Part shown: positions 7,046 through 37,077 of the stretch, one piece after another
Position numbering within the stretch: position 1 is the stretch's first letter
How the letters are laid out: every line of letters starts with the position of its first letter
Source of the DNA: an uncultured Clostridium sp.
GTDB lineage: Bacteria > Bacillota > Clostridia > Clostridiales > Clostridiaceae
Direction: 5' to 3'
Length of the DNA stretch: 53,431 nucleotides
Assembly: GCF_947039605.1 (NCBI RefSeq)
Contig: NZ_CAMQZG010000025.1
Coordinates: forward strand, 1-53,431
Notes under the pieces: generated by a model
What the model saw: only the letters and a program-made list of their open reading frames with translations
Databases searched by the model: none
Told to the model about the DNA's origin: nothing
Made by a program: the position numbers and the translations under genes

Positions 7046-7070
7046 TACGAGTAAAATGAATATTAAAAAT

Positions 7071-7297
7071 CTTTGAAGAGGGAAGTAACTTAAATGAGAT
7101 CTTAAAGCGAGTAGGAGTAGAGTGTGAGTCCTAAGGAATAGTTTGAGTGAAGAGAGCCTATGAGATATATACCATATATATTTATGGTATGTCGTTTAAA
7201 AAGCGTTAATTTACAAAGTGGATGTTACATCAAGTAGAGTGGTACCGCGGATTATATTCGTCTCTTATTTTAAGAAAATAAGAAGGCGTTTTTTTAT
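7071..7297 (+). promoter_or_regulatory. T-box leader controlling argS
   Basis: The hallmark T-box sequence AGAGTGGTACCGCGG lies at 7236-7250. It is followed by a terminator hairpin (7259-7297: CTTATTTT / AAAATAAG plus the outer CG/GCG, then seven T). The roughly 160 bases before the T-box contain purine-rich Stem I-like sequence. By family knowledge, uncharged tRNA-Arg binding would favour the antiterminator and allow argS expression. I could not assign the specifier codon with confidence by eye. The 406 bases between the Ppx-like gene and argS are explained by this leader and its promoter. Confidence 0.92.
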
Positions 7298-35793: not shown

Positions 35794-36372
35794 TTAATAA
35801 TTACAGTCGCAATCACAATCACAGTTATCTTTACATTTGAATGAACCATAAAAATCACATTTTGAGCATTCTTCATAATTATCGCTCATGCAAGGAATTG
35901 GCTTGCTACATCCATTATTTGGAACCACTACTGATTCTGAACCACAATCATAAGATTTTTCAATTACTTCTCTATCATAATGGAAAACATCTTTATTATA
36001 ATAAAAATCATTTACATAGTAAAAATCTTTAACATAATGATTATTAGTGTTAGTATGATGATTATTTCTAACATAATGGTTATTTGTTTCAAAATCTTTT
36101 GATGTGTTATAGTAGTTATCATTTCTCATATATTTATCTTTTGTTGAAGATTGACCGTTAGCATTTCCTTGACCGTTGTTAATACCACCTTGACCATTGG
36201 CATTTCCATTATTAAAATTACCTTGACCGTTTCCATTAGTATTACCTTGACCATTTCCATTAGAACTACATTGATTGTTTTGACCGCTATTATTTCTTGG
36301 ATCTATATACATAGAACCATTTCTATTATTTTTAAAATTACTCTTACTTTTTTCACAATTGTTACAATACAT
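35794..36372 (-). CDS. Asn/Gly/Gln-repeat protein with Cys-rich tail, coat-like
   Basis: The protein has 192 residues. Residues 1-30 contain CNNC. Residues 35-75 are degenerate repeats of the type NGNGQGN (e.g. NGQGNTNGNGQGNFNNGNA). Residues 80-140 are rich in His, Tyr and Asn with repeated HYV and FYY units (NHYVRNNHHTNTNNHYVKDF). The C-terminus carries a Cys cluster ending CDCDCDC. No membrane helix or signal peptide is present. Low complexity with His/Tyr/Cys richness is typical of spore coat or exosporium proteins, and a sigma-K-like promoter lies upstream (36425-36451). That role is inference. It starts at ATG behind AAGGAG. Confidence 0.6.
   Translation of the reverse strand: MYCNNCEKSKSNFKNNRNGSMYIDPRNNSGQNNQCSSNGNGQGNTNGNGQGNFNNGNANGQGGINNGQGNANGQSSTKDKYMRNDNYYNTSKDFETNNHYVRNNHHTNTNNHYVKDFYYVNDFYYNKDVFHYDREVIEKSYDCGSESVVVPNNGCSKPIPCMSDNYEECSKCDFYGSFKCKDNCDCDCDCNY
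36165..36262. repeat. Degenerate short tandem repeats inside the coat-like gene
   Basis: Repeated units such as TTACCTTGACC followed by (A/G)TTTCCATTAG recur several times at about 21-27-base spacing. They encode the NGQGN-type repeats. The copies are imperfect, suggesting repeat expansion followed by drift. Confidence 0.65.
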
Positions 36373-36470: not shown

Positions 36471-36713
36471 TTAATAATTAATTTCAGAACTTTCTACATT
36501 AATAATATCTTTTGAACTACAAGGTGTAACTCCAAAAGTCATAGAACATTTAGGACACTTACAAACTAAAGTTTCCATTTTAAAAATTTCGCCACAAGAA
36601 CAAGTTATAGTTAAATCACCCATTGGTGCTTTATTCTCAAATCCTTTACTTCTGACTAAATCTATTATTTTTTTTCCATTATTATTTAAATCTTTACAAG
36701 AACAATTACTCAT
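36471..36713 (-). CDS. Cys-rich zinc-ribbon-like small protein
   Basis: The protein has 80 residues with nine cysteines. The N-terminus is CSC, a helical part contains GKKIIDLVRSKGF, and then CSCGEIFKMETLVCKCPKCSMTFGVTPC forms two or three CxC/CxxC knuckles that should bind zinc or an Fe-S cluster. I do not recognise a named family. There is no good Shine-Dalgarno site before the ATG, only AAGTAG at a long distance, unlike almost every other gene here. The gene lies 18 bases after the terminator hairpin of the structured region upstream, which may control it. Confidence 0.65.
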   Translation of the reverse strand: MSNCSCKDLNNNGKKIIDLVRSKGFENKAPMGDLTITCSCGEIFKMETLVCKCPKCSMTFGVTPCSSKDIINVESSEINY

Positions 36714-36730
36714 AATAAAATCTGCTACTT

Positions 36731-36755
36731 AAAATATAGACAAAAGTGTCTATAT
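36731..36755 (-). terminator. Terminator-like hairpin ending the structured RNA
   Basis: ATATAGAC-acttt(t)-GTCTATAT followed by TTT on the minus strand, 18 bases before the Cys-rich gene. The T tail is short, so partial or regulated termination is possible. Confidence 0.55.
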
Positions 36756-37024
36756 CAAGAAAATTACTGCTTCCTAGCACCTCATTTTGCCAAAGCTACT
36801 CAGTGCTCCACAGTCATAAACTCCCGACTCGCCATCGGTACATATATAAACATCCATTTTACGTTAGATATTTTATACTAAGTAGTCTCTCCTTTCAATT
36901 ATTTATTTTGTTTTTAGTATTGTTAATCATCTACAAATAAGCACCAACAAGGTTTTACCCTATAATTATCTCAGCCCTTACGCTCTGATTTTGGCTTTCA
37001 TTTTCGCTTGTTCCATACCTTTTT
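36731..37024 (-). ncRNA. Candidate structured RNA upstream of the Cys-rich gene
   Basis: The 459-base gap 36714-37172 is noticeably richer in G+C in parts than its surroundings. On the minus strand it has a promoter (TTGAAT 37057-37052, TATAAT 37036-37031) and a terminal hairpin (ATATAGAC / GTCTATAT, 36755-36734, then TTT). Between these are many complementary blocks. AACAAG (37012-37007) pairs with CTTGTT (36951-36946), enclosing TCAG/CTGA (36988-36971). CTACTTAGT (36885-36877) pairs with ACTGAGTAG (36804-36796). CCGA/TCGG close a small hairpin (36838-36824). ACTG+AGCAC (36814-36803) pairs with GTGCT+CAGT (36780-36766). The third and fifth sets overlap, so they could be alternatives, as in a riboswitch. 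I do not recognise a known class. Confidence 0.6.
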
Positions 37025-37030
37025 AAAATC

Positions 37031-37077
37031 ATTATAGATTATATACTAAAAATTCAAAAGCTTCTATCTTTTGAATT
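37031..37077 (-). promoter_or_regulatory. Promoter of the structured RNA with overlapping inverted repeat
   Basis: Minus-strand TTGAAT and TATAAT are 15 bp apart (16 if TTTGAA is taken as -35). A 10-bp perfect inverted repeat, AATTCAAAAG / CTTTTGAATT (37051-37077), covers the -35 and could be an operator. Confidence 0.5.

Follow-up and report, generated by a model that had tools for sequence, protein, structure and literature searches.

An ORF-less IS607-type element with a RAGATH-18 RNA between a Shine-Dalgarno remnant and the start codon of a clostridial Cys-rich gene

The window, by which we mean the whole stretch of 53,431 nucleotides from an uncultured Clostridium sp. that was analysed (contig NZ_CAMQZG010000025.1), carries on its minus strand a gene for an 80-aa Cys-rich protein and, downstream of it, a gene for a 192-aa Asn/Gly-rich protein (35794-36372, minus strand) with NGQGN-like repeats and a Cys-rich end; neither protein has a Pfam match. 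Upstream of the Cys-rich gene, an earlier note on this DNA had placed a candidate undescribed structured RNA at 36731-37024, an extent that holds roughly, with a 3' side that reaches 36722 and a start at about 37017. A repeated ORF-less element of IS607 type, about 296 bp long, occupies the minus strand of 36722-37017; the ORF list holds no minus-strand ORF of at least 40 aa within it. The order in the window is a promoter-like stretch, AAAAAGG, the element and then ATTTTATTATG, with element junctions placed to within a few bases. The features are as follows:

37031-37057, minus strand: TTGAAT...TATAATCTATAAT, promoter-like by eye and assigned to the host Cys-rich gene
37018-37024, minus strand: AAAAAGG, remnant of the host Shine-Dalgarno (SD) sequence, the start codon now lying about 300 nt away (element boundary uncertain by a few bases)
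36722-37017, minus strand: the element, about 296 bp; its sister copy L002 is 91% identical over the entire length
36877-37017, minus strand: left-end part; of the copies compared, L002 alone has the same type
36840-36876, minus strand: stretch that follows the tnpB stop in tnpB-bearing copies (L009), with the inner deletion joint (by eye)
36824-36839, minus strand: hairpin 5' of the core, its loop being the PK2 5' strand, GCGA here versus GCTA in the sisters (broken)
36764-36814, minus strand: RAGATH-18 core (34.0 bits over model positions 1-71), which has lost 11 nt relative to the sister
36734-36756, minus strand: 3' stem-loop of the reRNA
36722-36730, minus strand: right terminus AAGTAGCAG, in which TAGC is the PK2 3' strand
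36702-36721, minus strand: would-be 20-nt guide if an reRNA were made, consisting of host sequence from the end of the element into the Cys-rich gene (position as implied by the accessible text of PMC11061315)
36471-36713, minus strand: host gene for the 80-aa Cys-rich protein

The Cys-rich gene starts 8 nt past the right end of the element, and no SD is found close to its start, as the earlier note had recognised in remarking that a good ribosome-binding site was missing. The gene occurs in three of the 40 genomes searched, its own included, and the two orthologues (L068 and L069), both free of the element, carry AAAGGAGG and AAAAGGAG at the SD position (sites CACAAAGGAGGATTTTTTTATG in L068 and AAAAGGAGAGATATTTAATG in L069). 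The gene lacks a nearby SD because the element sits between AAAAAGG and the start codon. This one arrangement explains why the ribosome-binding site is missing, why a promoter-like stretch is seen and why the gene follows so closely. The supposed RNA had also been credited with a minus-strand promoter of its own. A simple sigma-70 scan listed no promoter at 37025-37062; by eye, a -10-like TATAAT stretch lies upstream of the element, similar stretches precede the gene in the element-free L068 and L069, and the stretch is best read as the promoter of the host gene.

The RAGATH-18 core and its fold

At gathering scores, Rfam gave no match in the element region, the sole match of the window being a T-box leader at 7064-7268 on the plus strand (113.1 bits). 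A permissive Rfam search returned a match to the whole RAGATH-18 model (RF03064) at 36764-36814, with 34.0 bits and an E value of 1.6e-4, which is below the gathering score of 44.9 bits. The 91% identical L002 scores 62.3 bits, and in the alignment the core of the window copy is 11 nt shorter than that of L002; it is because of this loss that the window copy falls below the cut-off. The conserved core, described with a kink-turn / E-loop side in the accessible text of PMC11061315, is thus incomplete in the window copy. Among the three Rfam matches at E ≤ 10 there was none to raiA, which had been named as a class to exclude, and raiA and other Rfam classes were rejected for want of a match (gathering scores and E ≤ 10). 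RAGATH-18 is the guide-RNA scaffold (reRNA, omega RNA) of IS607 TnpB nucleases, and a 20-nt guide follows the scaffold (PMC11061315, accessible text). The RNA is a damaged member of this known class and not a new RNA class, and the whole-model match removes the ground for calling it undescribed.

The minus strand folds with -61.8 kcal/mol (z -2.06), equalled or bettered by seven of 200 shuffles and hence somewhat above chance; with the conserved stems of RAGATH-18, this bears out a structured RNA on this strand. A structure alignment was made of 31 copies of the AGTAGCAG right-end class from 16 genomes, drawn from 50 copies of that class with omission of very short and identical ones, and of L006, L007, L021, L026, L028 and L034, in which the hairpin pattern was absent from the interval searched. 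Two-sided changes that keep the pairing, counted as cells and not events by our own script (one gap column moved, without a shuffle control), were found in three of five pairs of the hairpin before the core, one of three pairs of the outer core stem, four of five pairs of the inner core stem and two of eight pairs of the 3' stem-loop. Four pairs of the inner core stem form in all 31 copies and the fifth in eight, and one pair of the 3' stem-loop is formed in just 20 of 30. The window copy retains the core stems, the hairpin and the 3' stem-loop, with its sole broken pair in PK2 and one further column a gap.

By our reading of the sequences, the published PK2 would correspond here to pairing of the loop GGCTA with the right-end TAGC. 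Each of its four positions is paired in 30 or 31 of the 31 aligned copies, the window copy (GCGA) being one of the two with a break, and matching loops were seen by eye in the other right-end classes. An anchored search, from which 12 copies without the anchor were dropped, gave at least four pairs in 113 of 116 copies, and in 1944 of 2320 trials with the right ends of other classes swapped in, so that it does not discriminate. In L006, L007, L021, L022, L028 and L034, about 50 extra nt with hairpins of their own lie inside a RAGATH-18 stem (by eye). Four of these copies (L006, L007, L022 and L034) score 29-38 bits, under the Rfam cut-off, and the variant is therefore underrated by the RAGATH-18 model.

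The earlier note had listed two helices that share bases, and had raised alternative folds as in a riboswitch. Its second helix (AGCAC with GTGCT) is present and is the inner core stem of RAGATH-18, in which two-sided changes were counted. The first, CTACTTAGT with ACTGAGTAG, has 9 bp in the window copy only; the sisters can form 6 bp by eye, all of them invariant. The 11-nt deletion created ACTGAGTAG and hence the 9-bp helix in the window copy alone. Control of the Cys-rich gene by a new riboswitch or leader RNA with mutually exclusive helices would suit the shared bases and the place of the element in a leader, where it folds better than most shuffles, but full-length helix 1 exists only through the deletion in the window copy, both orthologues are found without the element, and copies of the element precede unrelated genes. 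We consider this explanation extremely improbable. Neither a two-fold switch nor a free-standing RNA is supported, the sequence being a repeated mobile element with 14 loci in its own genome. As for the terminal hairpin with a T tail, the hairpin itself stands, being the reRNA 3' stem-loop, and its reading as a terminator was rejected, as none was called in the terminator scan.

Copies of the element and related systems

A blastn search with 36714-37040 gave 17 matches in the own genome, corresponding to 14 loci once pieces were merged. L002 (G000:C13:41992-42310) matches over the whole length at 91% and the remaining own-genome copies share the right half alone, so that the nature of the left half is judged from L002, its single close relative. 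Matches L010, L011 and L013, in G005 and G002, were rejected on reading as A-rich chance matches, which reduced the tally of genus genomes with relatives from four to two of seven (G000 and G004). All of the first 25 copies compared, 14 from G000 and 11 from G004, have the right terminus AGTAGCAG or one that departs from it by one or two bases; in 24 of them, the exception being L009, a start codon lies 5-12 nt past the right end. RAGATH-18 was found in 74 of 146 genomes of the taxonomic family and in 85 of 194 of the order. Among the genes behind the element are one for a class I tRNA synthetase, seen in each of two species (identified by Pfam at L002 and by likeness to L002 at L019) and taken by us to be TyrRS, and at L004 one for a class V aminotransferase, presumably SufS. 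L002 and L019 have the element at the SD of the same synthetase gene, with left ends that differ, which points to two separate insertions at the site or else to a replacement.

Resolvase and OrfB domains lie upstream of RAGATH-18 in L031 and L032, which are in the same genome and of another right-end class; by these domains the family belongs with the IS607 TnpA/TnpB elements, the window copy being without both. In the own assembly, the tnpB frames seen with RAGATH-18 are interrupted in L031-L033, and that of L034 runs off a contig end. This genome also has two uninterrupted tnpB frames of 413 aa, on contigs where no RAGATH-18 match was found. The assembly consists of 99 contigs, and intact copies may thus be missing from it.

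The locus resembles the RAGATH-18 reRNA of IS607 TnpB elements such as ISFba1 in the whole-model core, the hairpin before the core, the 3' stem-loop and the PK2-like contact, as well as in the right-end place of the RNA and in a TAM, AGGAG, that equals the insertion site (PMC11061315, accessible text). It differs from them in lacking tnpA and tnpB, in the shortened core, in the broken PK2 and in a score below the Rfam cut-off. With a probability of a little over 0.9, we read the segment as what is left of an IS607-family transposon: a decayed derivative without ORFs, with a RAGATH-18 reRNA at its right end, lying between the SD remnant and the start codon of its host. In the leader of the Cys-rich gene it is probably no more than an inactive passenger. 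That the window copy is probably inactive follows from the absence of a gene, the shortened core and the broken PK2. ORF-less IS200/IS605 derivatives with a guide RNA (PATEs) likewise have ends and a guide RNA without genes and are presumably moved in trans, but they belong to another transposase family and the site here is an SD.

A solo guide-RNA gene still in use, whose reRNA would work with a TnpB encoded at another locus to regulate genes or to keep the element, could be argued from the ORF-less copies in G000 and G004, which keep the scaffold stems, and from TnpB relatives that can turn into RNA-guided regulators (TldR; PMC13418256, accessible text). This use is nevertheless very unlikely for the window copy, whose core and PK2 are damaged, in a genome whose RAGATH-18-linked tnpB frames, as assembled, are broken or end with their contig. 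The group B (IS607) IStrons, with ORF-less versions such as BcISt1, share with the element the IS607 type, the GG target and the derivatives without ORFs (PMC4227781, accessible text). If the element behaved like them, its RNA would be spliced out and SD and start codon rejoined, which would also meet the need to express the tRNA synthetase gene found behind elements in two species. Group I introns were, however, without a match in the window region (E ≤ 10), at 16 loci (E ≤ 0.5) and at 20 loci (gathering scores), some of these loci stopping short of the left end, and in this the element departs from the group B IStrons; we think such splicing, which could also be the work of a new kind of intron, very unlikely here. 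The decayed and probably inactive derivative remains our preferred reading.

Start codons and SD sequences at the element ends

The position of the elements relative to genes was surveyed in a non-random sample of 135 copies, comprising 25 found by blastn from the window copy (G000 and G004) and 110 from the list of best-scoring matches, 30 of them the best-scoring ones chosen by the tool and 80 hand-picked from best-scoring matches with context unseen and short contigs mostly avoided. L059, whose right end was unrecognisable, was dropped, leaving 134 copies from 53 genomes; nine further loci of the order search (L150-L158) were viewed and left uncounted. A start codon was counted if it opened an ORF of at least 30 codons (at least 20 if cut by the locus end) at 4-13 nt past the right end. 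On this basis, 103 of the 134 copies lie before a start codon, 90 of them before ATG, although the right-end patterns were written after the first loci had been seen and copies of one genome are not independent. The distances from 5 to 12 nt are represented by 9, 13, 22, 24, 24, 4, 3 and 4 copies respectively, and 31 copies are without the pattern. Random positions in the same loci gave 8.2% for any start and 4.3% for ATG alone. A start codon followed 20 of the 66 AGGAG sites of the window and 129 of the 496 such sites of the loci (26-30%); the pattern thus exceeds that of the motif alone, an excess that could stem from selection against insertions within genes.

By right-end class, the element precedes a start codon in 45 of 50 AGTAGCAG copies (15 of 16 genomes), 30 of 38 GGCAACGG copies (22 of 28 genomes), 23 of 29 GTAACGG copies (15 of 17 genomes) and four of nine copies of six rare classes pooled. 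The TATGCAACGG class breaks the pattern, with one copy in eight (one of four genomes), and is perhaps a TnpB clade with another TAM. Its copies are L100, L101, L103, L107, L108, L109, L140 and L141.

Left junctions were resolved for 30 of the 134 copies, from four genomes. An SD of at least 4 nt lies within the last 14 nt before the element in 28 of these, as compared with 30% of random 14-mers, and one of at least 5 nt in 21 (our own count from the listing), as compared with 7.3%, although the last 2-5 bases are near-constant and may partly belong to the element. The junctions read GG or GGAG, with an uncertainty of a few bases, in agreement with the GG of IS607 targets (PMC4227781, accessible text); insertion of IS607 proceeds without target duplication (PMC6188088, accessible text). 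The starts behind the elements are poor in SD: one of at least 5 nt precedes 5% of the 103 as against 43% of 250 control ORFs, and one of at least 6 nt none as against 33%, the contrast at 4 nt or more being weaker (44% versus 64%) and the control starts being first ATGs, not curated ones.

A proposed mechanism and its meaning

For RAGATH-18 TnpB, a TAM of AGGAG was reported from 18 of 22 strains and one of GAGGG from the other four (PMC11061315, accessible text), and AGGAG is itself an SD. No link of the TAM to the SD is stated in the literature searched, which excluded most subscription journals, and the main text of PMC11061315, supplements aside and as far as accessible, has no mention of ribosome, RBS, start codon or Shine-Dalgarno. 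On the biology of IS607, the serine recombinase TnpA would insert the element at the GG/AG step of an SD, and an reRNA made across the right end would take the next 20 nt or so, the start of the gene, as its guide. TnpB would then find AGGAG joined to the gene start only at element-free sites and would cut there, and repair from an element-bearing copy would restore the element and favour its retention. We consider it likely that the RAGATH-18 IS607 elements are SD-homing transposons, with guides that spell the first codons of host genes and a nuclease that patrols translation starts. On this view AGGAG, needed both as TAM and as insertion site, is the ribosome-binding site of the host, so that most copies separate an SD from its start codon, and the host would have to express the genes so deprived by other means.

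Should the host depend on the tRNA synthetase and aminotransferase genes behind the elements, it has to translate them although no SD is near. Some of the genes left in this state are expected to be essential, and splicing is one way in which they could be translated. Of more interest than the RNA itself is that a widespread TnpB family has an SD as its TAM and that most of the copies examined lie at translation starts. Besides raising the question of how the genes behind the elements are translated, the pattern predicts where these elements land and accounts for genes annotated as lacking a ribosome-binding site.
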